From: Flammulina velutipes
Taxonomy: Eukaryota > Basidiomycota > Agaricomycetes > Agaricales > Physalacriaceae
Direction: 5' to 3'
NCBI GenBank assembly: GCA_011800155.1
Contig: CM022368.1
Span: 1,240,001 to 1,304,000 of the forward strand
DNA: 64,000 nucleotides
Made by a program: the position numbers and the translations under genes. Below, in pieces: positions 6,580 through 28,700 of this stretch; the first letter of the stretch is position 1, and every line of letters starts with the position of its first letter. Below the pieces are notes generated by a model. That model had not been told where the DNA came from. It saw nothing but the letters and a program-made list of their open reading frames with translations, and did not search any database.

Positions 6580-7297
6580 AGAGCTTCTTGACCTCTTACC
6601 ACCATCATCTCCGGATGGTGATTGGATATTTGGCGAGAGCTCTCGTCGCACGGCGCGACGAGGAGCGTACGATTCGTCCTCACCACTCGTGTAGTGGAGA
6701 TCCCGTCGGGATCTGAGCTCGTCGAGCTCATCGTTGGCTGCGCGACGCACGACGACCATCCTGAGGGATGCCACCAAGCCAATTGGAGGATACATGCGTG
6801 GTTTTTGCAACCCTTTTGTAATTAATGAACCCAATAATTGCATATCTACACACTGTGTGTCTCAAGGAGAAGGAGAAAGTCGAGCTCGTCGAGTTCGACG
6901 ACGCCCAGCACGATTAGCCAAGTCATGGCGCGCTGGCGCCATGACGCCATGAATAAGCTGACGTGTCGATGACATCACTCGTCCAGAAGTTGGACAGCTT
7001 CTTCGTGCTTCTGACGAGACCACCCGAGGACAGTCTTCTTCCTACGAAACCCCCCCGAAAACATATTGGCCAGATGTTATTGTCTCTCCGACGTAAACAA
7101 ACACAGATGGCGACAACACAGAGCAGACGCTGGCATACCCAAATACTCAAACCCAACGACCCCGTAAGAGAGCCCAGCTGTGGTTAAGAACCGATAACTA
7201 AAATACCCTAGACAGATGTCACTCCCCGGGAGAAGCGTCCTGACATCGGGGGCAGCGCCCAAGCTATATAAACCTGGAAAACAAGAAACAACCCTCT
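6580..7297. other. LINE 5' leader
   Basis: This stretch is inside the LINE, before ORF1. It is rich in short palindromes, for example GAGCTCGTCGAGCTC near 6716 and a related one near 6888, and a GC-rich arm pair around CGTCGCACGGCGCGACGAGG. A TATATAAA sequence lies at about 7265-7272, shortly before the ORF1 open frame. No convincing gene lies here; an 89-codon minus-strand ORF (6574-6843) crosses the element boundary and is taken as chance. Confidence 0.6.
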
Positions 7298-8661
7298 TTG
7301 CCTCTCTCCCCACTACCTCGTCGTCGCTTACGCTCACTGATCTTCATCCTGGAATCTCCACGCCGCCCAGTATCTGGCAACAGCCCGCGCAAGAGTGCCA
7401 AAACTACGTCCAGTAGTGGCGCTAGGAAGCGAGATCAACCTAGGCTGCCATCTCCGCCGCGCAAAAACGCGTATCAGAGCGGCTCAGACCACGACGACAT
7501 CGACACTGAAGTCCCCACCTGGACGATCAACAAGAACCTCACTTCGACATTTAAAGACGCTGAGCCCGACTCTGACCCCGAACCTAACGAAGACGTCACA
7601 ATGGACGAAGATAATGAAGGACAAACCGGAAGCATGCCCCCTGATACGCCAAACTCTGAACCCGCCGCTAACTCGCGAACCACGACCCCCAAGCAAACAA
7701 CGTCCCCAGAAACAAGCAAACAGACAAATACCGGCCCTCCCCCAGTCCCCAATCCAGCTCCTCGCAGACCGTTCGCCTACCCTGCCAACAAATTTGACAC
7801 TAGATGGAAATCCCACTGGGTACGTGACGATATACCCGCGCCATGATCAATCACTAACACTTGACTCAGGCTAGGAAGACAAACCCTCATGGGCTGATCC
7901 CAAACTTCGAACCCCAGTCACCCGCGGAATCTTTAGACCTAGCTGCCTTTGCACCTAACAATGGGAAGTGGAAAAATCCGGTAATCCAAGCGCCTGCCCT
8001 AATGGCTGGCTTTCCGCAACACGTCCGGGACGAAATCATGCTCCACCCCAACAAGTACCGTATCGCTCACGGCTTCAACTTCGGTGCTGGCCTGCTCAAG
8101 AACGTCGACATCGCAAAAGTCCTGAACGACGCCCTCCAGCCACTCGCCAATAACCGAGGCACAGTCAGCGTCACCCCAGTAACCAGATTCGAGGAGCACG
8201 ATAAACGTCACATCATCCTCAACAAGAGCCGAAAACTCCTCATCCTCCCGGAACAGAACCAGCCCTCTCGTGCAGAACGTCTCTCTGGACGCTGGACACC
8301 TCCCAATTCCCTTATTGTCACTATCGAAGGCGACAAACTACGGAACCTCATCGATCGCCAAATCACGTTTGCGCTCAACGATACTGTCGCAGCGCACATC
8401 CTCAGAGTCGACCCTCGCGTTCGCTCCTGGGTCGTCGGTATCTTTGCCACGTCGATTCAAGGGAAAGACACCTTCATCATGGAGGAGATCCAATGGCACA
8501 TCATGGGAAACCTCTTTCGCGACCACGGATTCCGTCGCTTCGTCAGCATCCACACGAGCGACTGGCGTGACTCGTCGGAGGAGAAGACCTTCAACATCCT
8601 TCGCTCGATGACAGTGGAATCGATCATCCACGACGAGGACGACATTCATTATGTCGTCTAC
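7298..8661 (+). pseudogene. LINE ORF1 (Gag-like), 5' part
   Basis: The open frame runs from about 7244 and shows no early ATG; the translation start is undecided. A Ser/Pro-rich acidic N-terminal region is followed at 7820-7869 by a 50-bp sequence with every mark of an intron (GTACGT donor, CACTAAC branch site, ACTCAG acceptor). It contains an in-frame stop, and splicing it joins KSHW to ARKTNPHGLIP in frame. The downstream part (LLKNVDIAKVLNDALQPLAN, then SWVVGIFATSIQGKDTFIME) is a globular Gag-like region. The frame is cut after TAC at 8661 by element 1 and resumes at 21001. ORF1 proteins of LINEs bind the element RNA and form the ribonucleoprotein needed for retrotransposition. Confidence 0.75.
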
Positions 8662-8685
8662 CATCAGGAAAAGCCCTCCTGGCCT
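8662..8685 (+). repeat. Element 1 left terminal inverted repeat
   Basis: The 24 bases are the exact reverse complement of 20975-20998. The first ten (CATCAGGAAA) are shared with element 2. Confidence 0.95.
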
Positions 8686-9064
8686 CAGTAGGTAGTAGGT
8701 CTAGCTATGTTACAAATTTCAACCTTGTACAACTTGTAGTTAACTTCATTGACTTGACTGACCTACAAGCTATAAGGCTTCCTCAGTACACATAGAAAGT
8801 CTCCAGGTCAGGAAACATCCTTCACATAGCGTAGGCATACCTGAGACAGCAGTAAGTCCACAATATTCTCTCAATTGACCTATGGGCACCTAGAATACCT
8901 ATAGGTTGATTGTACCCACTTCATTACCCTAAGTATCACCAGGCCTACTTATAGTTCAAAGTATAGAACATGTACACCTCAGTTCCTGTAAGGCTTAGAA
9001 TATTAAACCAAACTACAAGCTTGAAGCAATATAATTATTTAGATGGTGATATAAGAACAGTAAA
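8686..9064. repeat. Element 1 left subterminal region
   Basis: AT-rich DNA between the terminal repeat and the transposase stop codon, with many degenerate copies of short motifs such as ACCTA, CAAGCT and GTACAC. No ORF is credible. Subterminal arrays of this kind bind the transposase in CACTA-like elements. Confidence 0.55.
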
Positions 9065-12000
9065 CTACATATATAAAGTCTGATAGGCGTACAGACTCTG
9101 CCAATTATTAATAAGAAAATGAGTACATGTATCTAATATTGAATCATCCGTATCCCATACGTCTAACGATGTCTTACCAAAGTCGGGAAATAACATGCAA
9201 GACTGGCGAACATTACCGAGAGGTACTATGGACCAATTTGGCTTCCCGTTGCGAGTCTCCTTCGAGATAGACGGCATATTGTGGATTCTTGCAGTTCGCG
9301 GTGTCAGCTTTGGCTTGGTAAACCATTCGATGTAGGCGAGTGGTCCTTTCGGCCAATAGGGTGGTGTTGGCATATCTTCTCCCTTTAGCTTGATAGCACT
9401 CGGAATTTTGAATATAACTCGTATCCGCCCAATTCGCGTTCCTAATAGCTTGAGTTAGAAGAAATTTGAAGATGACAGTATTTCAACTGACCTTCTAACC
9501 CCGTCGACTCTGCATCATCGTCTGTAAGCACAACGACAGTGTCGAAGCGCCCGCCGTCAACCGGAGACGCGCGTACCCAATCTCTCTCTATGGAATCATC
9601 CAGCAGGCCCTCGCGGCTGAACTTGAAAGAGTAAAAAATGTCGATACGTTGGAATGGAAGGGGATCGTAAACGAGGGGTGACGCAGCATGAAGTTGCTCA
9701 ATACCATTCACGTAGTCCCGTAAGTTGGTGGGAAAGTCGCGCACATGATGCTCTCGAGCGACGGCTCCTAGTAGCTTCTTGGGGGCGCTGGGAATCTTGC
9801 GCAGTGTGATGGACTGGCCGACTCTAGTTATATCCTTCTGGGAAAGTGTCTCTGTCTTTCCCTCTGCGATTATCGAGTCCTTAGAAGCAACGGCTTCAGT
9901 TGCTGTGGCCTTCGATGCAACGGCTTCAGTTGTCGGTGTAGCCGCTTCTCCGGTCGACGCCTCCTTCGAATCAGTAGTAGCAGATAGTGACTTGAGAGGA
10001 CGTTTCGGTTCTGGAAAGCCATAAGTTTTCACGTAAATGAGACGGTGTTGATACTTACTACGTAGCTGTTCATTTACCCACTCGAGGTAGCCATCAAAGC
10101 AATGGACGCTTTCCTTTCGTGTGATCCATTCCGTCATCTGCGGGAACTCGTCGCGTTTGTTAGACGCTCTCCAACCCTTCTTCGAATAGTCGATATGAAG
10201 GCGTTCAAACATCTCGGTGTTGTAATTGTTTGTTGCGCCGAAAAGACGAATCGAGTCGACATAGTGAACGAGGGAGTGGAATTTCGGAATGTTGAAGTGA
10301 TCACGGACCCCGACATCAGTGAAGTAGCTCTTGTTGGCGCGCCAAGTTTCGAGTGCTGTGTCCATATAGCCCAGTGTGTCGTCGTCATGGGTAGGGTACT
10401 GCGCCAAATAGATGAAGTCTAGGATAGCTCGGCATGCGGTCACAGCTCGACTGTCCATTTCGTCTGCGATGCAACCTAGCAGGATCTTCCCCATATTCTT
10501 CCGTTCAGAGCCACTAATCTGGGAAAGGGCGCTGATGCCATTCTTGAAATGGCGAACACCAATAGCGGGTGGGAGGCACCGAATGCGGCGGTCAAGTTCC
10601 TGCTCCGTCATCAGGGTTTGACACCACTCCAGTAGATGCTTGAGAACGCCTTGATACAGCTGGTGGAGAACGTCGGGAGTTTGAGAAAGGTGGATGTTGG
10701 TATAGGGAAGCCCTTCCCAAAACGGATTTGGCACCGTCCCATTGACATTCTTTGCATTGCACGCCTTGATATATGCCGTACGTGACGACGTCGACTGTTT
10801 CGATGTGGCCATAGCATCCAAAGTGGTCTGGGGGGTTCGACGCTTGAATTTGGTATCACTATCCAGCTCTGAGGCGCCCGCCCAGCACTTCGGGCAGGTG
10901 CCGTACTTGGAACAGGTCACCAAACATTGTTCGGGGTAATCCGCAACATAGGCGGCAAGGACTGGATGCACGATTCTAACCTTTCCATCCCCGCTCGTCA
11001 TCTCGACACCATTGATCCCAGCATCTTTCAACGGCTCGAACAGGACCTCCATGGCTGCGTGAAAGAGTCGACGATAGCGGGCTGAGATCTCTGTCTTGGA
11101 AAGGTTTCCTGGAGTGACCTTCTCGACGGGGAGGTAGCCTATGAGAATGCACGCCTGCTCAGAGGGCTTACGGCGAAGGTAACTTGGTATATTTCCCAGC
11201 GTAAGATACACCGGATATGCTTGTTTCCCGCCAGAGAATTGAGTTAACTGAGTCTTGTCTGTTGAGACGATCAGAGCTGCCAATGTGTGGGTCTTTGGTA
11301 ACAAGTCCTACAAACAATAAGGCTAACATTTATCTAGGCAAGAAGAATACGTACTTGCACTTTCCACCACCAGTCTGCCGTCCACATCTCATTGATGATA
11401 CGCGACTTTCGGTCCTGGTTGGTGAACAGCTTTCGGGGCTTGTAAACGAGGTATTTTGAGAGCTTGGGATCTCCCCATAGGCTGCGAATTGCTTCTAGGA
11501 GGTCACGATGGCGTAGAGTGAATGGATCGTCTGATCGGTCGGGAAACGTTATATGTTTCGTGTGCCATGTCCCGGCGCGGCGAGGAATCTGGTCGATATT
11601 TTCGTGCAGGCGTTTGGCGTTAGAATACGATAGGCCTAATTTTTCCTTCACCTGCGAAGACGTCAACATTAATTCGGGAAGACAAAAATTTACAACTCAC
11701 CCCGTCAATTCGTAGAAATCGATTAAAAGAGCTATGTCCGATACCATCCTCCACCATCCACTTGGCGATTTCCCAGTCAAGCTTCGAAGCAAATGGATGA
11801 TAGATATTGAAGTTGCTAAGATCCGTGTCGCCGCTGCCATCCATCTTTGCATCGACTGTTGACGGTAGAGAGGCAGTTCCGAAAAGCGCGCCCCAGCGCT
11901 CATGAAGATTAGAAGCCATTTTGATTACGGCTCCGCCCTTCGGATGTTCGTCACACACTCGCCCATCCTCTTCGACATCCTCTTCACCATCGTCCAGGTA

Positions 12001-12510
12001 ACGCTGCCGAGCACCCAACATACGATTCATGCGAGCGCGTAAAGTCGAGGGACCTGGGCCAGCCTCTCCAACAGCAACAAGAGGAAGGACGACATCGTAG
12101 CAGTCCTCAGGATCATTCATCTCCATGAGTTCCCGGAGGAGCTCAGGTGACGGACCGACGAAAGTGTTTACTCCGCTTTCCTCTTCCTCCAGCTTTCCTT
12201 CCCGTTCTTCTTCTCCCTCGTCGTCGTCGTCGTCGTCATCGTCGTCGTCGTCGTCGTTGTCGTCGTTGTCGTCACCTTCCCAGACATTCTCCTCATCCTC
12301 CCAGAACGACGTTGTCATGTCGTGGATAGAACCCAGCACTACAGTTGGCGCTGGTGGCACGTTGAGCTTGGTGGCAGCCTCCTTCACGTGGCTAGGCCAC
12401 CATTTGCAAGTCGCTGCCTGTCTGAGATGGCTTCGCATGTGCCCGTACGTGGCGAAGGTGAGTGTGCACATCGGATTTTCACAGCGGAAGCCAGTGATTT
12501 GAGAAGCCAT
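9065..12510 (-). CDS. Plavaka-family transposase, element 1
   Basis: Five exons (11701-12510, 11355-11651, 10059-11307, 9492-10010, 9065-9441) encode 1083 residues. Residues 10-36 form a C2H2-like zinc finger (CENPMCTLTFATYGHMRSHL), followed by an acidic stretch with a long Asp run coded by a GAC-rich microsatellite. The catalytic body includes VHPVLAAYVADYPEQCLVTC, KYGTCPKC, LPYTNIHLSQTPDVLHQLYQ and FNIPKFHSLVHYVDSIRLFG, which mark the Plavaka transposase family. This enzyme should cut and join the element ends. The 48-bp intron at 10011-10058 is in frame, so an unspliced form would also be translatable. Divergent transcription with cargo A from a shared 1-kb spacer is likely. The gene looks intact. 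Confidence 0.9.
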
Positions 12511-12965
12511 GTTTGTGGGCGTGCAATGGAGTGGGTATGAATGAGAATGATATTGAGGATAAGTACATCTATGATAAGGCAACCCGATGATTATCGATGG
12601 CGCCATGGATTAATGTTGATGTTCGGGTCATCTGTGAGGAACATATGAGTAAAAAGAGTCGAAATGGGACCATGGAGCACATGGAGCAGCCAAAGAATTG
12701 AAAACTCACCGGGTGCCAAAAACAGGACACGGGCAACCTGACTGGAATTCCGACTAGGTGAAAAGAACTCTGTGCATTGGGTTGAGAGTGGCATCCTGTC
12801 GCCGTCCAACGGCAGAGGAATGGTTCTCGTCCAAGGGTAAGTCGCCGAGAGTGGCGTCCAGTCGCCAAGCGGAACGTCCAATGGTAGAGGACGGTTTCGT
12901 CGCCCAAGAGTAAGCCACCTCCACATCACCATATTGCGGGAACATGAGATGTCAAAGCAGCGCGC

Positions 12966-13012
12966 ACAGGAACGAGTCCAACGTGCATGGCAGTGTAGGA
13001 ACGGGTCCAACA
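12966..13012 (+). promoter_or_regulatory. Paired GGAACGGGTCCAAC motif, element 1
   Basis: Two copies, AGGAACGAGTCCAACGTGC and AGGAACGGGTCCAACACAC, lie about 30 bp apart. Element 2 has the same pair with the same spacing at 29728-29773. Each half contains the inverted pair GGAAC/GTCC, which suggests a dimer-binding site. Confidence 0.55.
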
Positions 13013-13220
13013 CACCACCAGTAAGTTACTAGTTCCATGACAGTGCTGTAAAGGTATCAGTAAATCTCTATATCCTTGCACTCGTACTCACGTCGTCGAA
13101 GCGGTAACCAGCATGAACGGAAGAGGCAGGAGGATCGAACCGGGGTAGTGGCGGTGCACCTAATTTAGGGGGGTCGGGTGCGCCTTTTTCGCACTCTAAC
13201 CATCAATATACACAACACTT

Positions 13221-13290
13221 GGACGCTCCCGCGGCGTTCACTGCTGTCTACTCCCGAAGTAGTCATTGCATACGCTCCCGAAGCGTATGC
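13221..13290 (+). promoter_or_regulatory. Three CCCGA/CCCGC-loop hairpins before cargo A, element 1
   Basis: Hairpin a: GGACGCT-CCCGC-GGCGTTC (7 pairs with two G-U). Hairpin b: CTACT-CCCGA-AGTAG (5 pairs). Hairpin c: GCATACGCT-CCCGA-AGCGTATGC (9 perfect pairs). Stems differ but the 5-nt loop is nearly constant. The equivalent place in element 2 (29996-30080) also has three. Confidence 0.75.
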
Positions 13291-13488
13291 TTGTTGTTGA
13301 ACCTTGCCGATTCCTGGCCAGATCCCTCCCTAGCACGTCCGGTCCATCGATCCGTATATCAATCCATCGCCATCCATTATCCATTTAATTGTGTGGCTGC
13401 TGCACAGTTTTAGTATATCGTGTGTTCCTTCTATCAGTGCGTAATCTCCATCTCATCAGTCTCGATAACTTACCTTCTCTCAGCATCC

Positions 13489-15712
13489 ATGAACAGCCTT
13501 CAAAAGGCCCCGCCGACTTGGCCTGATATTGGTACGCTGCGCACTGACGGGCGCCTTGGTGCTACGTTTGGAGATATCGCCGTCTCGACACCCAATGCCG
13601 ATGTTATGTATCGCCCCCTCATTGACCAGCCTGCGTCAATTACTCTCAATGAAGATTTTCGTTTTGGATTGCACGACCCAATTGCCCATCCTCAGCCGTA
13701 TCATCGGTCATCGCAATACCTTGTCGCCATGCGCGCTTCCACCGTTGACGGACTCGACCACCTCCTTTTCCGCCGTGTCACCACGTCCGACTGGATTCCG
13801 TCACCCAGTGTTCAAGCCTTCACTGGCATGGGGGTGTTGGATGAAACTATCACCGTCATGCTTGTCGAGCACGGTCGGGAACTTATAAGAAGGTTCAAAC
13901 GAGTGGCAGACGACGCAGCTGGGAAATCAGGCCCTATCAAGCTCGAGTATCTGGAGAACGATAAGACGCAACGCGACCTCTGGTACCTCTCGTTGTATCA
14001 TCGCCTGGTTCGTCGCCCTGCCTCCTTCGATGAATGCATGTTTCGCTGGGTCAACGTGCAGCGTCTGCACTTGAACCTTCTAGCGTATCTCGATTATATA
14101 ACCATCTTTCTGCCTCGCTTCAGAAATCTTCCCCAGAAACCACTTCCCGTCGACTCCTCTCGCGTAGGGTGCATCACAACAGTCATGTCCACCGCACTGG
14201 AATGTTTTTACGTCGGTCTGCCCGTTTGGTTCGTCTTCGATGCCTCCGCCGCCCGCCCGTACATGTATAAGCGCTATTTCACGGAATCCGAAGTCCAAGC
14301 GCTTCTGCAAGCGACCACCATTCCTGTCCGTTCTGATCAGATGGGGGCCTCCGGCAGTGAGGATGGGCTCTTCTCGCTAACTCCTGCTCCCGGCGCGCAG
14401 GTTCTTTGGACGGGTGATGCAGACGATCCAGCTCGTTATGCTGTTATGTCCAAGGTTTTGCAGCGCGATCTTCCTACGGGCAGGAAAACAGCGCAATCTC
14501 AACCTCCCGTGTCTGACCCTTCTAACTCATCTACGCTGCTCGTCTCCCAGCCAGGTTCTTCGTCCCACTCACCCGCGATGTCCCCTGGAGCATTGGTAGT
14601 GTCCTCCAGGAAGCGCACTCACTCCCCCGACCCCCGACCAAAAGGACCCCCGGCGAAGAAGAGTCGTGCCTCCAGCCCGGATACGTCGAGTCACCGTAGT
14701 CGCTGGCAAGACGTTGAGGCTGCCATCATGCCGCTTGCCATGGAATACTGGATGGATATCGTAGCAGAAGAGAAAATCACACTGGGTGCCAATGACCAGG
14801 ACAAGCCCACGTTTCCTGGCGTCTCTCTCCAACATAGTCACTTTGCAGCCCCTGATGGCTTCATTTTCGCCATTATGCAGAAGGAAAGCACACAGGCCGG
14901 CGCCTTCGCGAACTATGCTCGCCTTCGTCCTCTTATACAATACCGGCTGGACTCAGTCAACGACCCTAAAGCGGGTGTCCAAAACCTTCATGCTCAAATA
15001 TGGCGCACCGTTCTAGGGATAGGTGTTCTGGGATCTAACAAGAAGGCGGGGCGGGCAGCTACAAAGCGTGCCACCGCGGTTAATTCTCTCAATAAGAGCA
15101 TGTCCGATGCCCAACTGGAGGTGAGGGTTTTCGTCGCCATGTGTTGCGCACAGTCTCTCATCTACTTACTAGGTTTCAATAGATATCTCAAACCTCCGAA
15201 GTGTTCAAGCTTTGTGGCGTGACGGTACTATCCTTATCGACAACGGCTCCCTTCCCCCGATATCAGTTTGCCGGGAAATACTGTGGGAGATGTACGAGCT
15301 TAATTTCCGCTCAGAGCTGGTCCTTTTGGACGCTTTCGTCTTCAGCCCCAAAGGAGATGATGTAGCGGCGTCGGAGAGGCGCATGGTGGTGCTCAACACA
15401 ATCTCGCACTTCAACGGTAGTGTTGTTGTGGAGGACGATGATTTTCGGTCTCGCGGGTTTACTTCGCCAAGTGCTACTGAGCGCAAGACCGCTCTTTGCG
15501 AGCTGGTGACTGTGATGCGAGGCTGGGGCGGTGGCGCAACTTTGCCGGTAGCTCTCGACAACCAGACGAAGAAGCTCCAGGGTCTTAGCACTGTCTTTGC
15601 GGAGGAGATCGTGAATTTCACTAAGGATGTAGGGCGTCACTACATCAAGACGTTCTACAAGGTCTTTGCACGGCCCCCAACACTTCCACGCCGGCTCCAA
15701 GAGGAGAGTTAG
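13489..15712 (+). CDS. Cargo protein A of Plavaka-type element 1 (unknown function)
   Basis: Two coding exons (13489-15120, 15173-15712) encode 723 residues. I do not recognise a family. A globular N-terminal half (GATFGDIAVSTPNADVMYRP, then FDECMFRWVNVQRLHLNLLA) is followed by a Ser/Pro-rich basic linker with a likely nuclear signal (SSRKRTHSPDPRPKGPPAKK) and a second conserved half (WEMYELNFRSELVLLDAF, then GRHYIKTFYKVFARPPTLPR). The start codon is the first ATG after a leader intron that is also present in element 2, where a diverged homologue occupies the same place. Conservation of both halves and the intron before VSID argues for a selected role in the element, probably nuclear. It has no transposase-like motif that I can see. 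Confidence 0.75.
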
Positions 15713-16205
15713 AGGTTCGGGGCGAAAAGGTGAGCGACACTCCATACTATGAGATGAGTGACGAAACGGGCGGAGAGATGTGCAGGCAGGTGGCGCTCAT
15801 TTCTTATTTGTTTCTTATCCTGTAAATTGTTTGGACTCTTTCTATATGTATATTAGTTACAATGTATAACACTTTAGATATGACAATGAATGAGCAGACT
15901 GAGATACAAGGAGGCGCCGCTTCCACGTGATAAAGGATCAGTAGTTTGTCAATATTTGTACTACGCTGTCTACTCTCAACGACCACTATCGTCCATGCTT
16001 TCTATCTTCTCCTCTTCAAACATCGTCAAAACAAGTGACAGGGCCCCGCGCTAGTCACTTGTTTTCTCTTTAGACATTGTTGGCCCCGCGCTAATAGTGA
16101 CTGAGAGATCTATCTTGCTGTCGGGCCCCGCGCCAACAGCTGCTGCCACCGTTGGACGCGACGAAAACACAAAGAGCAAGTCCAAAACGCGAGATTTACG
16201 CGTCA
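15713..16205. promoter_or_regulatory. Leader region of TET-like gene, element 1
   Basis: No gene. AT-rich at the left, then three hairpins with a GGCCCCGCGC loop core (16028-16141) ending about 65 bp before the proposed start codon of the dioxygenase gene. Confidence 0.6.
16028..16141 (+). promoter_or_regulatory. Three GGCCCCGCGC-loop hairpins before TET-like gene, element 1
   Basis: Hairpin 1 has 12 perfect pairs (AAAACAAGTGAC / GTCACTTGTTTT) around a 14-nt loop. Hairpin 2 has 7 pairs with two G-U (CATTGTT / AATAGTG) around an 11-nt loop. Hairpin 3 has 5 pairs (GCTGT / ACAGC) around a 14-nt loop. Element 2 has the same series, with loop lengths 14, 11 and 14 in the same order but different stems. 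Confidence 0.75.
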
Positions 16206-18160
16206 ATGTCTGAAAAGGTGTGTGTATCATTTTCTTGTTGTATATATCTTCCCTTCGACGAGGCGTTGAGGACAGCTACCGTCGTTGGTGGTTGACCTCC
16301 GTTATATATTTCGGTTCGGAGTGTCGAGGACGGCTACCGTCGCTGGCGGCTGGCCCTTCATGATGAACTGGGGTGTTGGGCATGTTGAGAATAGCTACCG
16401 TTGTTGGTGGCTTGCCTCCGTGCTTTGCAATGTTTTCTTTGTGGGTGTCCCTGCTGATTGTCTGGTCTTTAGTTTCTTGTTACCACATGGGACACGAACG
16501 AGCGCGCTGCTCTGATAGAAGAGCTATTCGGTGGCGCTCTAGATGATCTCTCAGATGCCAGCGATAACGACCAGGTTGAACTGCCTGCACCGTCCCCGCA
16601 AAGTCGCTTGACGTCTATAGCGCAGCATATTGATCCAAACTCACCTCCCGCCACGACGTCTAGGTCAACACCCTTCCCGTCCGCACGCTCCCCATCTACG
16701 CGCTCCCCATCTACGCGCTCCCCGTCTACGCGCTCCCCGTCTACGCGCTCCCCGTCTACGCGCTCCTCATCTACGCGCCGCAAAATAAAACCCCTTCCAG
16801 TATATTCAACGTCGGGACATTCTCGAGCGCAATCTACTTCCATGAACACCCTCATCTCAACATCCATTCAGCTTCCCCATCCAAAGACGCCAGAGGACAC
16901 TTCATCGGTCTCAGAGCTCCCACTTCCCAACACGCGCAAACGAAAACGAAAACGACATGACAGCGAAGAGGAGCATCGGCGCCGTAAACAGAAGAAGAAA
17001 GACGCAAGGAAGGTGAAGCGGGCAGCTGAATCCCGCCCTCGAGGTCTGAGAGACATCTGGCTCAAACATCTCATGAATGCGCAGCCCATTATCTTCCCAG
17101 ACTTCGATATCACGTCTCTAGCAGTCGGGCCCAGTGGGTTTCGTGGATGCCAGCGTCCCACGGATCGGAGGACTTTCAGTGCGGATGAGCTGAAGCAGCA
17201 GAACTTCCAGACTTTTGCCTACGATGGAGACACAACCTACGTGTTTCTGGATCGAAATAGGAGACTTATCATGCTTCTCCGCAAGCGCGATGGCAGTGAG
17301 GAAGGCTCTCGGAGGCAGGAGCGAATGACAGTGTCACTGGATAGCGCGAGGAGGGAGGCAATATTTGACACGGAGCGGCGAGGATCGTTCGGTGTACTAC
17401 GGGATGGGCACATCCATAGTGGAGGAACATGGGTGAGGGATATTGCTTCGAATGCCCGCCTCGTATTGACTTAAGTATTAGGAACCAAGTCGGGTTGTGA
17501 ACAATGCCGGAAACACTCAAGTTCTCAACGCACTTTTAGGGAGCAAGGACTTCCAAGAAGACGCGAGGCACTCTGATAGTAAGTTCAGATAAATTTCCGA
17601 CCAGCATACCAATTCTAATAATGGTCTTAGTCGCATTGGAGGTATTCAATCCAGGAATGAGAAATCTATACTGGACAGTGCGTGAGGCTCTGTCCAGCCA
17701 GTATCCCGACCTTCACTGGAACTTTTCTCAAAGTGCCTTCTCTACCACTACCGTCAACTTCGGACCTCAAACAGTTTGCATTCCCCACGCGGATGAGAAC
17801 GACTTTGTGTTTGGCTGGGGAACTCTCAGAGCGTTCGGACATTTCGACCACACAAAGGGTGGCCACGTTGTCTTCTGGGATCTAGGTATCATGTTCGAGT
17901 TCCCTCCTGGGCCCGAATTCTTCTTCCCTAGTGCACGCTTCATTCACGGAAACACGGAACTACAAAGGGGTGAAACCCGCTTCTCTACAACTTCATATTC
18001 AGCGGGTGGATTGTTCGAATGGGTGCATCGCTGCGGCCTTCCCCTCTACGCCTGGCAGCAGCATCTATCCCGCAATCCAGGTGTTGAGGAGGAAGAGATA
18101 GCTGCTGAAAGGGAGCGATACACTCAGCTTCTTGATACATGCTTTCCGGTTTGCCTGTAG
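16206..18160 (+). CDS. TET/JBP-like 2-oxoglutarate Fe(II) dioxygenase, element 1
   Basis: Four exons (16206-16217, 16473-17432, 17482-17578, 17631-18160) encode 532 residues. The catalytic part has the iron-binding triad: H409 and D411 in CIPHADEND, and H462 in RFIHGNT. R473 in GETRFSTTSY is the likely 2-oxoglutarate contact. The segment TKGGHVVFWDLGIMFEFPPG is typical of fungal TET/JBP proteins, which oxidise the methyl group of 5-methylcytosine (or of thymine in JBP). The N-terminal part has six RSPST repeats, a basic nuclear signal (TRKRKRKRH) and a conserved FRGCQRPTDRRTF domain. The four-codon first exon (M-S-E-K) is inferred because element 2 has the same arrangement. Acting on the element's own DNA to counter methylation is inference. 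Confidence 0.82.
16274..16412 (+). promoter_or_regulatory. Three hairpins in intron 1 of TET-like gene, element 1
   Basis: The unit GAGGACGGCTACCGTTGTTGG is repeated at about 60-bp spacing. Each copy can fold as a 7-bp stem with a 6-nt loop: AGCTACC/GGTGGTT (16274), GGCTACC/GGCGGCT with one mismatch (16332) and AGCTACC/GGTGGCT (16393). Element 2 has two copies in the same intron. Confidence 0.6.
16686..16777 (+). repeat. 15-bp tandem repeat coding RSPST
   Basis: Six near-identical copies of CGCTCCCCGTCTACG inside exon 2 of the element 1 dioxygenase gene. The homologue in element 2 lacks the array, so it expanded recently. Confidence 0.85.
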
Positions 18161-18357
18161 GACTACTTGACCCTATTTATTTCCCTGGCCCTTTTTACTT
18201 CTTATATTAGACATTCTGGCCTCATTTATTAGCCCTACGGCGCCATGGCCGCCTCAGACCCTGTCTGACTTTGTTTAAATATTCGTGTTCTTCGCACTTT
18301 TCCTCTCTTTCATTCCCTTTCCCCCCACTCTTTCACCTCATCTCACTCTCTCTCGCT
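18161..18357 (+). promoter_or_regulatory. Promoter of DUF6532-like gene, element 1
   Basis: A TTTAAATA box lies about 80 bp before the ATG, followed by a pyrimidine-rich leader (TCCTCTCTTTC). Element 2 has TTTAAATA at the matching place (about 48665), also followed by a pyrimidine-rich leader. Confidence 0.55.
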
Positions 18358-20133
18358 ATGTCTGGACGTCGAAAGAATACTCAAACTGCAACTGCTGCTG
18401 CTGCGGCCAAGGCCAAGAAGGCTGCTGCTGCTGCTGCTGCCAAAGCTCAGAAGGCTGAGCAAGACGCTGGTGTGTTATATTGTTATGTTTAATAGGATAT
18501 ATGTTAACTCTTCTGCTTAGCTGTGCGCATGCGTGCGGCGGCGCTCAAGGCTCATCTTCTCAAGGCGCTCAGTCAGCAACAAGCTGATGCTGAGTTGGAC
18601 TCTGGCTCCTCATCCGGACGCAACAAGAGTGAGACTCCTGATCCTCCGTCCGGTACTGTTGCACCCTCGCAGCAGGAGCTCGATGATGACGACGACGACG
18701 GCCTTGGCTTTGAATTACCTATTGCCTCTTCCCCACCTCACTTCGTAGAGGATGAGGATTACAACGGAGATCTTCCACCTTCGTCGGATGTGTTTGATAT
18801 TGGTCTAGAGTCTGACGACGAGCTGGTGCGTTTTTGTTTCTTCACAATGAATTGTGTACTAATATTCTTGCAGGATGTGGCCGATGTCTGCACTCCCACT
18901 CGTCCTCGCAAGCGCGTCGCTTCTGGCGGCCTGTCCACTGCACCAATGCAGAAGAGGCAGAGAATCCCTCCTGGTCTTACCGCCCACCCGGACGACATTC
19001 GGGGCAAGCGCAAGATGTCTCACTTCACTCCCCGTACTGCCCGTGTCATGGCCAAAGTGAAGACCGTCGCTCGTGGTCAGACTGTTACTGCCAATGCCTT
19101 TGTTCCCCCCGAAAGCCGCCTTGAATACTACAAGAGTCTCATCTCCGAAGTTGCTCATGATCCCAAGATGGGCTCAGAGGACATGGTCAAGACAGTTCTT
19201 CGCATTTTGAACAATTGCGTTGAGTCTGGATCGATGAACATCTTTGGGGACTTTGTGAGTCTGTCCTCTTGTATGTTTCTTTGTTCTAACTCTTTCGTAG
19301 ATTCATTACGGGGATGGCGACATCAAGTATCGGATGATGACGCATGTTCGGAGTGCCATCCATCCTTTGGTCACGTCGTGTGGGACTGACAAGGCTAGCA
19401 TTCAGACAAACGTCGCCTGGCTGAAGAGTACACTGGCCTTCATCTTTGGCAACTTGGACATGAAGGTTCGTCTCTTCTTTTCTTATCATTCACATATATA
19501 CTAATGTTGTCCAAGTCGAAGACATTTGATGCTGACAAGCAGTTCCTGGCTGAGTGGTTTGTCCTGGTACTTCGATGGTATCTTTTCGAACAACAGGGCA
19601 AGAGTGATCTTCCTGGCTTTCATGCTATCATTGGAGTGCAGCAAATTCCCGGGCCCACTATTGCTTTGCTTTCAACCATGGTATGTCTTCTTCTTTCTGT
19701 CTTTTACTGATACTTATCTCTTCCTTTAGGCGTTCCATGTCCTTACAGAGTGGGAAGATGGGACACACTCTCGGGCTGACTTTAATCATAAGTCGTCGTC
19801 CCGGTGCGTCTTTTTTCTTGTTGACTAGCCCGTCTAATATCTTTTGCTTTAGTTATCTGGATTTTCTGGCCCGCATTGATAAGCTCCAAAAGCTAGCTCC
19901 GGATTACTGGACTGAAGTTTCTACTGGTATCTTCGAAGACATTGTGTACGTCTTCTACTTGTATTTGTTTTGCTTCTAACTTCTTTTTCAGCCGTCAGTC
20001 CAACAAGCAATGGCTTCTTCAGAAGGCCATGGACGACGTGGCTGATGATAATATTGATTATAGTAAGATCCAAGCAGCTGCTCAGGCTCGTCGAGCAGCT
20101 GTTGGTGCTACTGCCTCGTCGTCGTCCTCTTAA
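18358..20133 (+). CDS. DUF6532-like cargo protein, element 1
   Basis: Eight exons (18358-18469, 18521-18825, 18874-19254, 19301-19465, 19516-19680, 19730-19803, 19853-19945, 19992-20133) encode 478 residues. The N-terminus is an Ala/Lys helix (AAAAKAKKAAAAAAAKAQKA), then an Asp-rich acidic patch, a basic nuclear signal (RPRKRVASGG) and a helical C-terminal half with IHYGDGDIKYRMMTHVRSAI, LRWYLFEQQGKSDLPGFHAI and YLDFLARIDKLQKLAPDYW. That half resembles the basidiomycete DUF6532 domain, but I give this as tentative. Its role is unknown; charge and layout suggest a nuclear, perhaps DNA- or chromatin-associated protein. All seven introns recur at the same places in element 2. Confidence 0.75.
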
Positions 20134-20974
20134 TCATTTTATTCTGTCTTTACTCCTGTGCATACTCTATCATCACTATATCGTCTATCTACACTCACTA
20201 GTAATCTGGTTTGGTTTTTATATTTGCTTGTATGGATAGCTAGCCTTTAGGGGTTTTAGTTTCCAATAATAATCATGATTTAGTCCGCATTTTTATCTGG
20301 TTTTGTAAGGATAATTTTAGTAGCTTCGTCTTCTTAAAGCTTTATTCAAGCATACTTGATGATTTCCTCAAGACAGGTTTATGTTTCTCTCATGCTACTT
20401 GTAGGTGTAACTCTATATCAAGCTCTGACATATGTATGTCAATAGTATTCTTAATGATGACTCTGAGTCCTCTTCATGTTAAGGCCTTATAGGTTGTGTA
20501 ACCTAGAGTATTACTTATGATTGACTACAAGTTACATTGAGTTAACTCTACAAACAAGATAATACTTTGAGTATTGTATAGGTAGACCTAATGTAAAGGT
20601 TCAAAGATAGATCGTACCTAGAGTATACCTACCGTACCCTGTTCGTTGATCTGTGGTTCACATAGAGTTGAGTTTATAGACAGCACTTGACCTATCGCTA
20701 AATGTAAGTACTACAGAAGTATACTGTGAGTCAAGGTTCAAGCTATTACAATACTTAGAGTATTCTACAAGTCATACTTCTGCATACTTCAGGTTATTGC
20801 TTTCTTGTTCTTGAACTATAGGTAGAGCAAAGTATCATCTCAATACTTAGGTACATCGGGGATTTATTCAAGCTTTCTTCAAGTTACTTAAGGTCAAGTC
20901 TTGACCTGAACCTTTACCTGAAGTCAACCGGGACCTGAGCAACCTAGGCTTACTAGGTTAACTGAGGCTAGCTA
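20134..20974. repeat. Element 1 right subterminal region
   Basis: AT-rich, gene-free, with many degenerate copies of short motifs such as CCTAGAGTAT, GAGTATACCTA, TTCAAG and CTACAAGT in both orientations. The last 100 bp (CTGAACCTTTACCTG, then CCTGAGCAACCTAGG) are closely matched by the right end of element 2. Confidence 0.6.
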
Positions 20975-20998
20975 AGGCCAGGAGGGCTTTTCCTGATG
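20975..20998 (-). repeat. Element 1 right terminal inverted repeat
   Basis: Exact reverse complement of 8662-8685, followed by the AC target duplication. Confidence 0.95.
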
Positions 20999-21342
20999 AC
21001 CTGGAACCATTCGCAAGAGACCCACTGGAATGGGACAAAGTACGCGACCACATCGGCAAAAAAACTTATAGCGCCGGTGTCTTCGCCATATACCCCGCGA
21101 AATCTGGAGGTGGCGACACTGTCTGCCACGTCTGCAAACTCGACAATCATCTCTCATTCCATTGCACTTTCTCCAACGACGACCTGGAGTGGACGGGTCC
21201 ATACGGCACGCCGGACCAGATGGAAAAAGCTAAGGCGCCGCAACCGTCGTCATCGTCGTCGTCGAAGACGCTGCCGGCCAAGGACTTCAACCGAGGTCGA
21301 CAGAGAGGCGACCGAGGACAGAGACGTCGCGGTCGAGGATAA
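20999..21342 (+). pseudogene. LINE ORF1, 3' part with zinc knuckle
   Basis: Continues the frame broken at 8661: TAC (with AC duplicated) is followed by CTG GAA CCA TTC. The segment LEPFARDPLEWDKVRDHIGK leads to VCHVCKLDNHLSFHC, a CCHC zinc knuckle with spacing C-2-C-4-H-4-C, and an Arg/Gly-rich basic tail ending at TAA 21340-21342. A knuckle and basic tail at the C-terminus are normal for nucleic-acid-binding ORF1 proteins of fungal LINEs. Confidence 0.8.
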
Positions 21343-22295
21343 GACTCCCGGCGACATGTCCCACCTACGCTCGTAAACATTGCTCAACCATGCTGTACCA
21401 TACCTCTCTCGATATGTTCGTACTTTGCTCTCACCTGCTGCTTTCGATATGTATATTGCCAAACTCTTCACAATACATTACCACTCTGTACATGATTCTT
21501 GATACTGTAACTTCTCAATATGTCACACATACACTCCTTGCAAGAATGAAATACTGATATGTGTATACAAACACGACGTGCTTGAAGATAAAGCTGGAAT
21601 AGTGTTTCCAATCAAAATCCCGGCCTGGGGCCGGAAGAAGTCGCGCGAGCTACAAGAGCGCGCGCAAACACGTATCGCCCACATTTACTGACTGCTGTAG
21701 CCGCGGCAGGACAGGAAAGCGAGACGTGAATATATCTTGATGGTTGAGGAAAACAAGCGTTAAAACTTGTGGATCCGGAAATCATCAGGCCAGCAGCCCT
21801 GGCTAGCAAAGAGTCCCGAAGGTGTAGCCCAGTAATACACCGGAAGGTCTTGAGCAAAATAGTAGTCTAGTACCTCGGCAGGGTGCTAGATGAAACCAAC
21901 CAACCGCAACAGACACAACAACAACGAAGAAAACAACAAACGGTGAGTTTTTAACAGGTCCGGCCACTCGTAACGTCGACTCTGGAGAGCGCGATTCCAA
22001 CGCCCATGGCTTCGCGAATTTCGATGAAAGAGTTCGACGGGTTGGGGATTTCTCAGGCCTTCCAGAGGATGGCAGAGGAGAGATCCACGGCCCATCTGAG
22101 GAAGGAAGGCCTACCCCTCATGTTTGTCAACCTGAGGGGCGCACCACGGCAGGTGTAGATGTACACGGCGTACATGAGTTACACGGCGATAACTCTGTCC
22201 CAGATGGGCATGACGCACGGCGCGTCAACCAGCAAACGGCAGCTGGTAATGCACTCAGAACAGAGCACGGCGCTCAGAGGCGAGAGGGACAGACA
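21343..22295. other. LINE inter-ORF region
   Basis: No separate gene. From 21894 to the first in-frame ATG at 22296 the ORF2 frame is already open but has no ATG (about 134 codons). ORF2 could therefore start at a non-ATG codon, be joined by splicing (a TTTTTAACAG acceptor-like site lies at about 21948-21957), or be reached by reinitiation. Confidence 0.5.
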
Positions 22296-25200
22296 ATGAA
22301 TCCCACACAACGGCCAGTAGTAGAGAAGGTCGGAGGAGCTAGACAGAAAAAGCGATGCAAATTAAACACAAAGGCAACAATACGAGTCGCCGGACTCAAC
22401 ATAAGTGGGCATGGGAACGTGAACCCGTATCACCCTGACAACAAATGGAACCACATACCTCAAATGATGAGAGAGAAACGTATAGGAATCCTGGTAGTCG
22501 GCGAAGCTCACCTTAACGAAGAACGTCATAGAAAGATATCAGACATACACGAGAGGTCCCTCAAGATCTTCTATTCGGAGGGCCCAGAAGGCGAGAATGC
22601 CAAAGGAGTAGCTATCGTTCTAAACAAAGCAATCACAAATACCGAGGACGTCACAGCCATTGAAGTAGTTCCCGGAAGAGCCCTATTACTAACCACAAAT
22701 TGGCACGGAGAGGAGAAGATGTCAATACTCGGTATATATGCCGATAACGACCCAAGGGACAACGCAGAACTGTGGAAGTTGATTGAACAATTCTTTGAGA
22801 CAAACAGAAGAGTTCGTCGACCAGATATCGTACTGGGAGACTTCAACGTAGTGGAGGACGCGATAGATAGACTTCCGCCAAGGCACGATCCAGATAAAGC
22901 AGTCCTAGCACTCGACTCAATGAAGCTAAGCCTGCAGCTAGTGGATGGCTGGCGCGATACATACCCGGACAAACTGGACTTTACCTTCTCCTACCCCAGA
23001 GGCAAGTCACGACTTGACCGGATATACGCAAGAGACAATATCATCCAAAATAGTTGGGACTGGAAAATCGAAGAAAGTGGAATCAAGACAGACCACATGC
23101 TAGTAAGTGCACAGATAGCAAGCAATCAGACAGTAGAAACGAAAAGGGGCAGATGGACTATCCCGAAACACTTGCACAGCGACAAAAAGCTAACAGAGGA
23201 GATCAAAGCGTTGGGAAAGAGCAAGCTGTGTGACATGGAAGCGGTCACGGGAGACCTAAGAACAACAGACACGAACCCGCAGACCATATTCTACAGATTC
23301 AAGCTCGAACTAATAAGAGCTGCCCGCACTCGAGAAAAGGTGGTAATCCCCCGAGTCCAGAAGGCGATCCAGATCCTCGAAACAGAACGGGAGAACATAC
23401 TCAATGACCCAGACATAGAAAATGAAACAAAAATCCAAGAGACTGGAATAATTGAGGCGGAGGTCACGAGACTATCAAAAAAGAAACACACCTCTGCTAG
23501 AATGGCAGTAAAAATACGCCACATCATCGAAGGGGAGACCCTCTCCAAATCCTGGACTCAACTTGGAAAAGAAAAGAAGACAAGAGACCTCTTTAGACAG
23601 CTAAAGACAGGACAAGTCAACAAAGCAGGACTCCCAATATATGAAAGGGACTCCAACCGGATGGCAGGAATAATGCGACGTCACCATGATGAGTTACAAA
23701 GAGATGACATAAATGAAGCAACTATTGAAGAACGGTTAGAAGAGATATCGGATGTAACGGACATAATTGACAATGGACTCACAGACGATGAAAGGGCAGA
23801 GATAGACGAGGCAATAACAGAAGAAGACATTACCTTGGTCCTCCGGCGACTTGGAAACAACAAAGCTCCCGGTATAGACGGAATCACATATGAATACCTG
23901 AGGAAACTCATGATAGACTACGAAAACGATACAAAGAAGGAGGAAAGGTCCGGAAATGCCTTTAACATCATAAGAATGCTGATGTTAGTCTACAATGATA
24001 TCCTCGAACATGGAATGACACACGGGACAGAATTTGCAAAAGGCTGGATGTGCCCCATATACAAGAAGAACGACAAAACAGAGCCCGCAAACTATAGGCC
24101 AATTACACTACTTAACTCTGACTATAAGATATACACGAAGATCCTATCAATTCGTTTAGCAAGAACTGTACCGCGAATCATCCACAAAAACCAAGCTGGA
24201 TTCATCCCGGGACGGAATATCTATGACCAAGTAAAGCTCGTTCGAACCATCATCAATTACGCAGAAGCGACCGAGACTAATGGACTGATTGTGGCGCTCG
24301 ATCAGGAGAAGGCATATGATAAGATATCCCACGACTATTTATGGGAAGTTCTTGCGCGATTCAAACTGCCGGCGAAATTTATAGACTCACTGAAATCACT
24401 GTACAGTGATGCAGAAACACAAGTAATGATTAACGGCTTCCTAAGTAGACCGTTCAAGGTAACACGAGGGGTACGACAAGGTGATCCATTGTCATGCCTG
24501 TTATTTGACCTAGCGATTGAGCCACTCGCAATAATGCTGAGAAAATCAGGCCTGAGAGGAATTCCAATCCCCGACCCAGAACGAGTAGAAAATCTTGTAG
24601 CAACCTTATTTGCAGATGACACGACAACATACCTATCCGAGTATGATGACTTCGAAGATCTCCAAACAGTCCTTCAAACCTGGTGTAAAGCATCACGCGC
24701 TAAGTTCAACATAACCAAGACGGAAGTAATCCCGATCGGTACAGAAGAATACAGAAAACAAGTGATTGAGACTCGGAAAACACACAACACAAGCAGTGAA
24801 ATCCCTCAGAATGTTCATGTTGTCGAGGATGGTAATTCAGTCAGAGTGCTAGGCGGATGGGTTGGCAACAATGTTGATGATGTCGCCCCGTGGACAAAGA
24901 TCCTCACAGATATAGACCGACGACTCGCTATATGGGAAATGTCGAAGCCGACAATTGAAGGGAGAAGATTGGTGATCCTGATGGTTATTGGGGGGAAAAC
25001 TCAATACCTAAACATGGTTCAAGGTATGCCGGAATGCATAATGACCAAACTCAACCGCCGGATCAGTAGGTTTATGTGGGAAGGAAAACACCCCACCGTG
25101 AACTCAGAAAAGCTCAAACAAAGCAGTGCAGATGGAGGCAAAGATATACTTGACCTAGTAGCACGCAATGAAGCAATCACGATCATGTGGCTTAAATCAT

Positions 25201-25388
25201 ACCTTAACTTCGGCGAAAACCGCGCCACATGGGCCTTCTTTGCAGACGAACTCATAGCGAGACACGCTACAAAGGAGATTAGTCTAGAAGAATTCTGAAT
25301 CAACCAAAATGAATATATTCCTACAGTCATGGAACGCCACGAAGCTACCCAAAGACCTGAACAGCATGATCAAAACCGCCAAACTATA
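22296..25388 (+). pseudogene. LINE ORF2, endonuclease and reverse transcriptase part
   Basis: The frame 22296-25298 encodes 1000 residues. An AP-type endonuclease (about residues 25-270) shows GEAHL, VLGDFNVVEDAIDR, KSRLDRIYARDN and TDHMLV. The reverse transcriptase (about 515-800) shows NNKAPGIDGITYEYLRKL, YRPITLLNSDYKIYTK, GVRQGDPLSCLLF and the catalytic FADD near residue 772. A 1-nt insertion near 25285-25293 brings a TGA at 25296. In the +1 frame the sequence continues as KNSESTKMNIFLQSW up to 25388, where element 2 is inserted. The two domains nick target DNA and prime cDNA synthesis from the LINE RNA. Confidence 0.88.
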
Positions 25389-25799: not shown

Positions 25800-28700
25800 C
25801 TACAAGTATATAGTCTGATACGAATAGAGACTCTGCCAATTATTGATCCGAAAATGAGTACAAGTATCTAAAATAGGTTCGTCTGTGTCCCATATACTTG
25901 ATGGGGTCTTGTCGAAGTCAGGAATTAGCATACATGATTGTCGAATATTGCCAAGCGGGATAATGGACCACGCGGGTTTACCGTTTCTAATATCTTTCGA
26001 AAGTGAAGGCATATTGTGCACTCTTGCGGCGCGCGGAGTTAGTTTCGGTTTGGTGAACCATTCGACATAGGCCAGTGGTTCCTTAGGCCAATATGACGGG
26101 GTTGGTATGTCGTCCCCTTTTATTGAGATTGCGCCAGGGATCTTGAATATAATTCGAATACGTCCGATGCGAGTTCCTACCAATGAGTCAGTGAATACTA
26201 TCAACAAGAGAAGGAGAAGAATAACTAACCGTCCAGTCCAGTAGACTCTGCGTCATCATCAGTGAGCACGACGACTGTGTCAAACCGTCCATCATCGACA
26301 GGAGTCGCACGGACCCAATCCTTTTCCAGTGTGTCGTCAAGGAGGCCCTCGCGACTGAACTTGAAAGAATGCCAGACGTCGATACGTTGGAAAGGCAGTG
26401 GATCATAGATAATGGGCGTTTTTGCTTTGAGCTGCTCGATGCCGTTGATATAGTCCCGAATGTTGGAAGCAAAGTCTGGAACACCATGCTGGCGAGCGAT
26501 AGCACCCAGGAGTTTTTTCGGAGCACTAGCAATCTTTGGAAGTTTGATGTGTTGATATGCGGCGGGGAGACTTGTCTGTGGAACCGTCTCGGTATCTTCG
26601 GAGGCTTTGTCCTTTGGTGGAGTCTGCGTCACAGAGGTAGTGTCGACATTCGCTGTCTGTGATGTCTGAGTAGACGAGGTGGCCTTGATGTCTAGATGAA
26701 GATGAATTAGATTTGCATTCAGACATTGAAGATATTTCAAAAACTACCTAGCTGCTCCCGGACCCATTGAAGGTAGTTTCTGAATCCATGAACACTCTCC
26801 TTCCGCGTAACCCATTCCGTCATCTGCGGAAATTCATCCCGCCGATTGGACGCGCGCCATCCCTTCTTCGAGTAGTCGATGTGTAGGCGTTCAAACATTT
26901 CAGTATTGTAGTTGTTGGTTGTTCCAAAAAGTCGAATCATGTCGACGTAGTGGCAGAGGGAATGATACTTGGGAATGTTGAAGTCATCGCGGACCCCAAC
27001 ATCGATGAAGTAGGCTTTGCTGTTGCGCCATGTAGCGAGAGCAACGTCCATGTACCCCAGAGTGTCGTTGTCGTGAGTGGGATACTGCGCTAGGTAAATG
27101 AAGTCCAATATGGCTCTGCAGGCCGTCACCGCTCGGTCATCCAGTTCGTCGGCTACACACCCCAAAAGAATCTTTCCCATATTCTTCCGTTCCGTCCCAC
27201 TAATCTGAGAGAGCGCGCTTATACCGTTCTTGAAGTGACGAACTCCTAAGGCCGGTGGAAGACATCGAATACGACGGTCGAGCTCTGCTTCTGTCATCAG
27301 AGTTTGGCACCATTCAAGGAGGTGTCTTAGAACACCCTGATATAGCTGATGAAGGACGTCCGGCGTCTGGGAAAGATGGATATTGGTGTAAGGAAGCCCC
27401 TCCCAGAACGGAGCTGGCACCGTCCCGTTGACGTTTTGAGCATTGCATGCCTTCAAATACGCTGTACGCGATGTGGTCGCCTCCTTCGCGCGTGACATGG
27501 CATCCAGAGTACTCCTCGGGGTTCGACGTTTGAACGTGTCCTCTTCGTCAAGTTCCGTAGCCCCTGCTGTGCACTTAGGGCAAGTGCCGTACTTGGAGCA
27601 AGTAACAAGACATTGCTCCGGGTAGTCAGCAACGTAGGCGGCCAGGACAGGATGTACGATACGAACGACCCCGTCGCCACTAGTCATCTCAACACCTTTG
27701 AGGCCGGCCTCCTTCAAGGGCTCAAACAGAACAGTCATCGCAGCGTGGAAAAGTCGTCGATAGCGAGCGGAGAGTTCGACTTTGGAAAGTGTCCCGCGAG
27801 TGATCTTTTCGACGGGGAGGTATCCAAGAAGGATACATGCCTGCTCAGAGGGCTTACGGCGAAGATGGCTAGGTATGTTTCCAAGGGTGAGATAGATGGG
27901 ATATGCTTGTTTGCTACCCGAAAACTGGGTGAGTTGTGTTTTGTCAGTGGAGACGATGATAGCCCCAAGAGTATGGCGTTTGGGCAGTAGGTCCTAGAAA
28001 TACTCAATACAACATTTGGATATTTGGCTAAAAAAACATACCTGGATCTTCCACCACCAGTCAGCCGTCCACATTTCGTTGATTATCCTTGTCTTCCGCT
28101 CCTGGTCGGTGAAGAGCTTTTTTGGCCTGTATACGAGGTATTTGGCAAGCTTGGGGTCGCCCCAGAGGCTCCGAATCGCCTCTAGTAAGTCGCGATGACG
28201 CAGAGTGAAGGGGTTGTCAGGACGGTCGGGAAATGTTATATGTTTCGTATGCCAAGTCCCAGCGCGACGAGGGATCTGATCGAGATTGCGATGTAAGCCT
28301 TTGGTATGAGAATAAGAGAGTCCCAGTTTCTCTTTGACCTACCAAGAAGTTAGCACTAGAAAAACAACAAATGAATAAAAACGCACCCCTTCGATACCCA
28401 GTAATCGATTGAAGGAGCTATGCCCGATCCCGTCTTCCACCATCCACTCAGCAACCTCCCAGTCCAGCTTCGAGGCAAAGGGATGGTATATATTGTGCGC
28501 ATCAAGATCTGCCTGCCCGCTACCGTCCATCTTTGCGTCGAGGGTCCCTAGTGTCGGAGCTGTGCCAAAAAGGGCTGCCCAACGTTCGTGAAGCCCACGC
28601 GCCATCTTGATAACAGCGCCAGCCTGCTTTGGGTGCTCGTCAATGACACGTCCGTCTTCCTCATCATTACCCTCTTCGCCGTCATCGAGATAACGCTGAC

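Follow-up and report, generated by a model that had tools for sequence, protein, structure and literature searches.

Two DNA transposons of the PlavakaB type, elements A and B, lie in a 64,000-nucleotide stretch of the Flammulina velutipes genome (GenBank assembly GCA_011800155.1, contig CM022368.1, positions 1,240,001 to 1,304,000 of the forward strand; hereafter the window, whose own numbering is used for its features), and each carries a gene for a predicted Fe(II)/2-oxoglutarate dioxygenase of the TET/JBP fold. The reading that we prefer, with a probability of roughly 0.6, is that this enzyme is regular cargo of PlavakaB elements and would oxidize 5-methylcytosine (5mC), relieving silencing of the element that carries it. 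In the analyses reported here, the gene was found inside the termini of all five elements with paired ends, the fold was predicted from a model of a relative, the catalytic residues were kept, and exon 4 was under purifying selection. Loci elsewhere in the genome are given by contig and position.

Element A (8662–20998; 12,337 bp) is complete, with the termini CATCAGG...CCTGATG and a 2-bp target site duplication (TSD), AC, at 8660–8661 and 20999–21000. Element B (25389–51293; 25,905 bp including later insertions) also has paired termini and is flanked by TA at 25387–25388 and 51294–51295. Both interrupt a single long interspersed nuclear element (LINE) with endonuclease, reverse transcriptase, and RNase H domains (7244–8661, 21001–25388, and 51296–53204); the insertion of element A is in the first part of the LINE and that of element B in the second. 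When the flanks of element A were rejoined with a single AC, an open frame ran through the join, and the flanks of element B rejoined with one copy of its TSD likewise gave an open frame; the frame at the latter join differs from that of the long open reading frame that ends at 25298, so that the LINE itself must contain a further frame break. The transposase gene of element A (approximately 9065–12609, reverse strand) matched the Plavaka family PF18759 (at 10621–11298 and 11355–11627) with 273.7 bits against a cut-off of 26.3, and the N terminus of its product looks C2H2-like by eye. Plavaka was the sole Pfam match of its main exon at E ≤ 1, and no match to KDZ (Kyakuja-Dileera-Zisupton; PF18758) was obtained at that threshold. 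The element B transposase gene (approximately 25800–29304, reverse strand) matches PF18759 at 27307–28314, a match that spans one TAG (an intron or a defect).

The terminus pattern CATCAGGAAANGCCCTCCTGGCC was searched through the 38-Mb genome with up to 3 mismatches. This search returned 22 forward and 18 reverse matches, and the reversed-pattern control returned 0 and 0. Five pairs of termini more than 5 kb apart were obtained: elements A and B, C9:952227-964961, C8:955501-969640, and C8:2609078-2622022. All five have CATCA..TGATG ends and a 2-bp TSD (AC, TA, CT, GG, and TA, respectively), and all five enclose a Plavaka transposase, a second gene (gene 2, below), and the TET-like gene. PlavakaB elements are described as having CATCA..TGATG ends and TSDs of 2–3 bp (Kojima 2025, PMC12730594). 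Based on its termini and TSD, the carrier of the TET-like gene is a PlavakaB-type DNA transposon.

The TET-like gene of element A (copy A; 16206–18160, forward strand) encodes 532 amino acids in four exons (16206–16217, 16473–17432, 17482–17578, and 17631–18160) separated by GT..AG introns, with the ATG at 16206 and the stop codon ending at 18160 (533 codons counting the stop). Copy B, in element B (46736–48560, forward strand), encodes 500 amino acids in exons 46736–46747, 46971–47834, 47885–47981, and 48031–48560. The four-exon plan is common to both copies, exon 3 being 97 nucleotides and exon 4 530 nucleotides in each. The interval given in an initial annotation of the window corresponds precisely to copy A, a single gene from ATG to stop; the HxD...H...R set that it described is present as H409, D411, H462, and R473, and the element termini, the AC/AC duplication, the LINE join, and the PF18759 match bear out its proposal that the gene lies within a Plavaka-type element with its own transposase.

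Placement of the protein by sequence comparison alone failed (the profile scores are given below), and the fold was therefore used. A model of relative P0001 has high confidence over the region from residue ∼230 to the C terminus, one loop excepted. Structure comparison of this model ranked CcTet, NgTET1, human TET2 (hTet2), and CMD1 first, in that order, followed by AlkBH3 and FTO. The AlkB/FTO group and the prolyl hydroxylases were ruled out as the closest family by Z scores of ∼12 compared with 23.7. On the model of this relative, the protein is predicted to have the TET/JBP fold, a double-stranded β-helix closest to TET structures, which upholds the TET/JBP assignment of the initial annotation at the level of fold; a shared fold does not establish function. 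Among 7996 candidates scored, 88 proteins were homologous at E ≤ 0.1, none of them with a precomputed PF12851 (Tet_JBP) assignment. The best named relatives are from Cylindrobasidium, and the named homologues are, we presume, all from Agaricomycetes. One homologue is a fusion model with Plavaka (P0065) and another a fusion model with KDZ (P0074). Of 30 family rows, 13 matched Tet_JBP at E ≤ 0.1 (best, 1.2e-6), and a six-frame search of the whole genome, in which introns were ignored, gave no PF12851 match above the cut-off. If the enzyme works as proposed, the Pfam Tet_JBP model would miss transposon-borne enzymes of the present kind at its cut-off.

Conservation of individual residues was counted over 91 aligned rows, made up of copies A and B and 89 homologues. 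The HxD motif is present in 86 rows and HxE in none; four rows are gapped here, and one is gapped at the second place. The residue five after the metal-binding His is Asn in 80 rows, Asp in six, Thr in one, and a gap in four, so that Asn or Asp is kept in 86 of the 91; all seven copies belonging to the A/B group have Asp there, as do three Cylindrobasidium proteins. In copy A this residue is Asp414, matched by sequence spacing. The Asn or Asp found there in hTet2 (Asn1387), NgTet1 (Asp234), and CMD1 (Asp350) contacts N4 of 5mC and blocks N6-methyladenine (6mA), and an hTet2 N1387G variant acts on 6mA (PMC11040006). The position six after the 2-oxoglutarate Arg (R+6; Y479 in copy A), which holds the stacking aromatic residue, is Tyr or Phe in 88 of 91 rows. 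The Arg itself is replaced by His or Gln in four rows, so some relatives may be inactive.

These residues bear on the type of TET to which the enzyme belongs. According to Kojima 2025 (PMC12730594), the PE type, which includes the Plavaka-borne TETs, is marked by HxE, and the AG type by Gly or Ser at the position of CcTet residue 331 together with a conserved Asp at 337. The present enzyme has HxD in place of HxE, and copies A and B have Asp (Asn in most relatives) at the equivalent of 331 and Gly at the equivalent of 337, an ungapped comparison whose second position a gapped alignment could shift. By the published residue descriptions, taken in place of a direct alignment, the predicted enzyme is outside both of these mushroom-borne types.

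Between copy A and the copy in the C9 element, exon 4 has a nonsynonymous divergence (dN) of 0.033 and a synonymous divergence (dS) of 0.34–0.51, a ratio of 0.06–0.10; by the NG86 method, dS was saturated in 17 of 21 pairs for this exon. The exon-4 frame is open in all seven copies, and exon 4 of the TET-like gene is under purifying selection. The regularity of carriage was assessed at 20 Plavaka loci found with the transposases of elements A and B, after pieces among 30 matches had been merged. Four weak loci (C10:760k, C10:804k, C3:158k, and C2:2737k) were left out, and further weak PF18759 loci, hardly found with these transposases, exist; counts from these searches are lower bounds. At seven of the 20 loci the transposase is 83–100% identical to that of element A or B; five of these hold the TET-like gene between paired termini, and the other two (C1:2.95M and C12:1.77M) have it 9.5 and 25 kb away on the same contig. 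At another seven, with 66–70% identity, the TET-like gene lies 1.8–29 kb away on the same contig, within 3 kb in five. Overall, a TET-like gene lies within 10 kb at 11 of the 20 Plavaka loci, compared with 1.7% under uniform placement, an expectation uncorrected for clustering of mobile elements; in this count element B was scored through the gene of element A, with its own lying 19 kb away, beyond an insertion. Among KDZ loci, 8 of 91 lie no more than 10 kb from a TET-like gene (the 91 being taken among the matches listed, of 166).

The remaining six Plavaka loci, C3, C10, and C8:853k (46–48% identity) and C15, C21:119k, and C22 (pieces, 40–73%), have no TET-like gene nearby (at least 62 kb away, or absent from the contig), so it is dispensable for the transposase. 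The initial annotation had named element copies lacking the gene as evidence against its view: none occur among the seven 83–100% relatives, and these six distant loci do lack it. Their existence, together with the naming of three homologues as prolyl 4-hydroxylase α in one source, is what might be expected if one element lineage had captured a host gene fortuitously and this gene were a passenger, useless to the transposon or active on a substrate other than DNA. With the gene inside all five paired elements and exon 4 constrained, we regard a passenger as very unlikely.

The orientation of gene and transposase was compared with a tree of the TET-like genes. The two genes are head-to-head at 12 loci and on the same strand, with the TET-like gene first, at two, both on C5. 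At three of the head-to-head loci (C12:1.77M, C6:2.82M, and C21) 14–29 kb separate the two, which may be parts of different elements. The tree had 30 rows, 27 from 26 of 33 genome loci plus three Cylindrobasidium proteins; seven loci (C1:2452266, C5:154179, C8:151015, C8:235881, C8:581803, C9:1392998, and C11:110366) were omitted as fragments, for stops within the stretch, or because no alignable piece was cut out. In this tree, the 12 head-to-head loci and the three Cylindrobasidium proteins fall on one side (support 94/92), and the C5 pair groups (100/99) with five loci lacking any Plavaka transposase within 36 kb. A single capture by all Plavaka elements, modeled by holding the Plavaka-linked rows and the Cylindrobasidium proteins together, was rejected (approximately unbiased test, p-AU = 0.0015); the tested group was set by distance to a transposase after the tree had been inspected, and long branches can contribute to this value. 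Because the joint grouping was rejected, Plavaka elements of the F. velutipes genome probably acquired the TET-like gene at least twice. Only five elements were shown to have paired termini, and the C5 loci are not among them.

We tentatively suggest, with doubt slightly outweighing confidence, that these genes represent a further TET type of Agaricomycetes besides PU, AG, and PE. It would be characterized by HxD with Asn or Asp at +5, would lack the Pfam Tet_JBP label, and would be borne by both Plavaka and KDZ elements, with at least two acquisitions by Plavaka in one genome (the 12 head-to-head loci, in one clade with Cylindrobasidium, and the two same-strand loci with the TET-like gene upstream). 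Asp would have replaced Asn in part of the head-to-head lineage, perhaps with a new substrate.

As to function, escape from methylation-based silencing is the role that we favor for the predicted enzyme. It would oxidize 5mC on DNA, with Asp414 taking the part of the N4-contacting residue of hTet2, NgTet1, and CMD1; this oxidation would relieve silencing of the element, the transposase and the other genes would then be expressed, and the element could move. Removal of cytosine methylation, the role suggested in the initial annotation, is a published hypothesis for TET+ Plavaka elements (Kojima 2025, PMC12730594), and the host genome has DNA_methylase matches above the cut-off at four loci.

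Several observations weigh against this proposal. In the profile search that the initial annotation had suggested, Tet_JBP was the best Pfam family for the protein but scored 14.5–17.3 bits against a cut-off of 34.9. No other dioxygenase family, an outcome that would have spoken against that annotation, matched the window protein; two of the 30 family rows also matched PF13640 (2OG-FeII_Oxy_3) weakly (best E, 0.013). Searches of the Protein Data Bank by phmmer and by profile returned no TET chain at E ≤ 10, CcTet included. Exon-2 matches in the C9, C1:2.94M, and C12 copies span stops (a defect or an intron), so some copies may not be intact. The ratio of observed to expected CpG is 0.94 in the element and 0.96–0.98 in host-like flanks, and the LINE is not depleted either; there is thus no trace of past methylation-driven decay, which agrees with the report that hypermutation was not detected in Agaricomycotina (Kojima 2025, PMC12730594). 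As evidence of a methylation scar, the flat ratio gives no support either way. Two further points, the residue at the position that contacts the base O2 and the distribution of oxidized methylcytosines in other fungi, each lead to a different account of what the enzyme does.

The first concerns the substrate. The position eight after the 2-oxoglutarate Arg (R+8), equivalent to the base-O2 contact, has Ala or Ser in 83 of the 91 rows. The contact is Arg393 in CcTet and His1904 in hTet2, and the residue varies among known TETs (PMC11040006). With this position unlike that of hTet2, NgTet1, and CcTet, the substrate may differ, and the enzyme might act on DNA at another base or step: on 6mA, on thymine, or in marking the termini for the transposase. 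CcTet also acts on 6mA (PMC11040006), and CMD1 yields a different product from 5mC (PMC12730594). However, the Asn or Asp at +5, which blocks 6mA in hTet2, NgTet1, and CMD1 (PMC11040006), is conserved in 86 of the 91 rows, and we consider action on another base or step improbable. Because the +5 residue and the R+6 aromatic are kept and R+8 is changed, 5mC is the likeliest substrate of the predicted enzyme, with real doubt.

The second concerns the consequence of 5mC oxidation. In Laccaria bicolor and Coprinopsis cinerea, oxidized methylcytosines (5-hydroxymethylcytosine and 5-formylcytosine) occur in transposable elements and go preferentially with non-expressed genes and elements (PMC8889193), an association that fits silencing as well as escape. 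The product could therefore persist as a mark, holding the element silent or restricting its number of copies instead of leading to demethylation, and Kojima 2025 (PMC12730594) allows a regulatory role for the oxidized forms. The data from L. bicolor and C. cinerea are, however, correlations from other fungi, and an element-borne gene under strong purifying selection is more readily understood if it helps the element. A lasting mark is an unlikely outcome in our judgment, and relief of silencing remains the role that we prefer.

The elements carry other genes as well. Gene 2 (approximately 13414–15709 in element A and 30098–32673 in element B, both on the forward strand) also occurs with some distant Plavaka loci. 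That of element A has relatives in Cylindrobasidium and no Pfam match, and its structure model was poor (mean predicted local distance difference test score, 37.6). Gene 4 (18358–20492 in element A, end approximate; approximately 48762–50392 in element B; both on the forward strand) is DUF6532-like, at 18.6 and 14.9 bits, respectively, under the cut-off of 24; a DUF6532-like gene is present in three of the five paired elements, the third (C8:2609078) scoring over the cut-off. Gene 2 and the TET-like gene are separated by ∼14 kb in element B (32674–46735) and by ∼0.5 kb in element A. The extra ∼14 kb would be one or more later insertions, including a KDZ transposase (34713–35399, reverse strand), which has equal-scoring copies at C5:2823744 and C10:2221136 among the matches listed. 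Intron 1 of copy A has two 30-bp repeats (16268–16355, forward strand), with a weaker third near 16390 seen by eye, and intron 1 of copy B has two occurrences of the same motif (46796–46825 and 46865–46894); the window has four matches to it, against none expected from shuffled sequences.

Other observations concern the history of these elements. The transposase and the cargo-end terminus of element B are closest to those of the C8:955501-969640 copy, and its TET-like gene is closest to that of element A; this is a weak hint of mosaic origin or gene exchange between elements (83/74 on the tree), which we do not claim. Ten Plavaka-like end pairs, CATCAGGAAATGCCCTCCTGCTC...GGCCAGGTAGCCCTTTCCTGATG and variants, lie ∼1.47 kb apart (for example C5:154408-155884, C19:42969-44437, and C6:1643189-1644657) and are probably non-autonomous elements; the C5 pair adjoins a TET-like fragment (C5:154179-154418). 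At C1:2445324-2452873, gene 2 and TET-like fragments were found and no transposase was detected, so this locus is probably a decayed element.

These results can be compared with known systems. A literature search, limited to the available parts of the sources, found no treatment of TETs in Plavaka beyond Kojima 2025 (PMC12730594). The TET+ PlavakaB elements of Agaricus bisporus and Gymnopus confluens described there share with the present ones a Plavaka transposase, CATCA..TGATG ends, a TSD of 2–3 bp, a TET/JBP-fold cargo gene, and hosts in the Agaricomycetes; by description, their enzymes are of the PE type with HxE, whereas the present one has HxD with Asp or Asn at +5. TET-fold cargo in PlavakaB is thus an already published kind; the initial annotation mentioned neither this precedent nor that the present enzyme appears to differ from the published Plavaka-borne type. 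AG-type TETs (in Kyakuja and Zisupton elements) and CcTet of C. cinerea are likewise basidiomycete proteins with the TET fold and HxD...H...R, the AG types also being transposon-borne, but CcTet has Gly331 and Asp337 where the present enzyme has Asp and Gly (ungapped), with ∼14% identity in the structural alignment. NgTET1, human TET2, and CMD1 have the same fold and likewise Asn or Asp at +5; the present enzyme, without His or Arg at R+8, is 9–13% identical to them in structural alignments. KDZ elements also carry TET genes, and relatives in the present family lie near KDZ transposases (and, in P0074, are fused to one), whereas elements A and B have a Plavaka transposase.

If the enzyme works as proposed, a DNA transposon would bring its own eraser of a silencing mark, and the transposon-borne TETs of mushrooms would be more diverse than the published types. 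With several related, clear-ended copies in a single fungus, one could ask directly whether a TET borne by an element aids its carrier or contributes to the silencing of that carrier.
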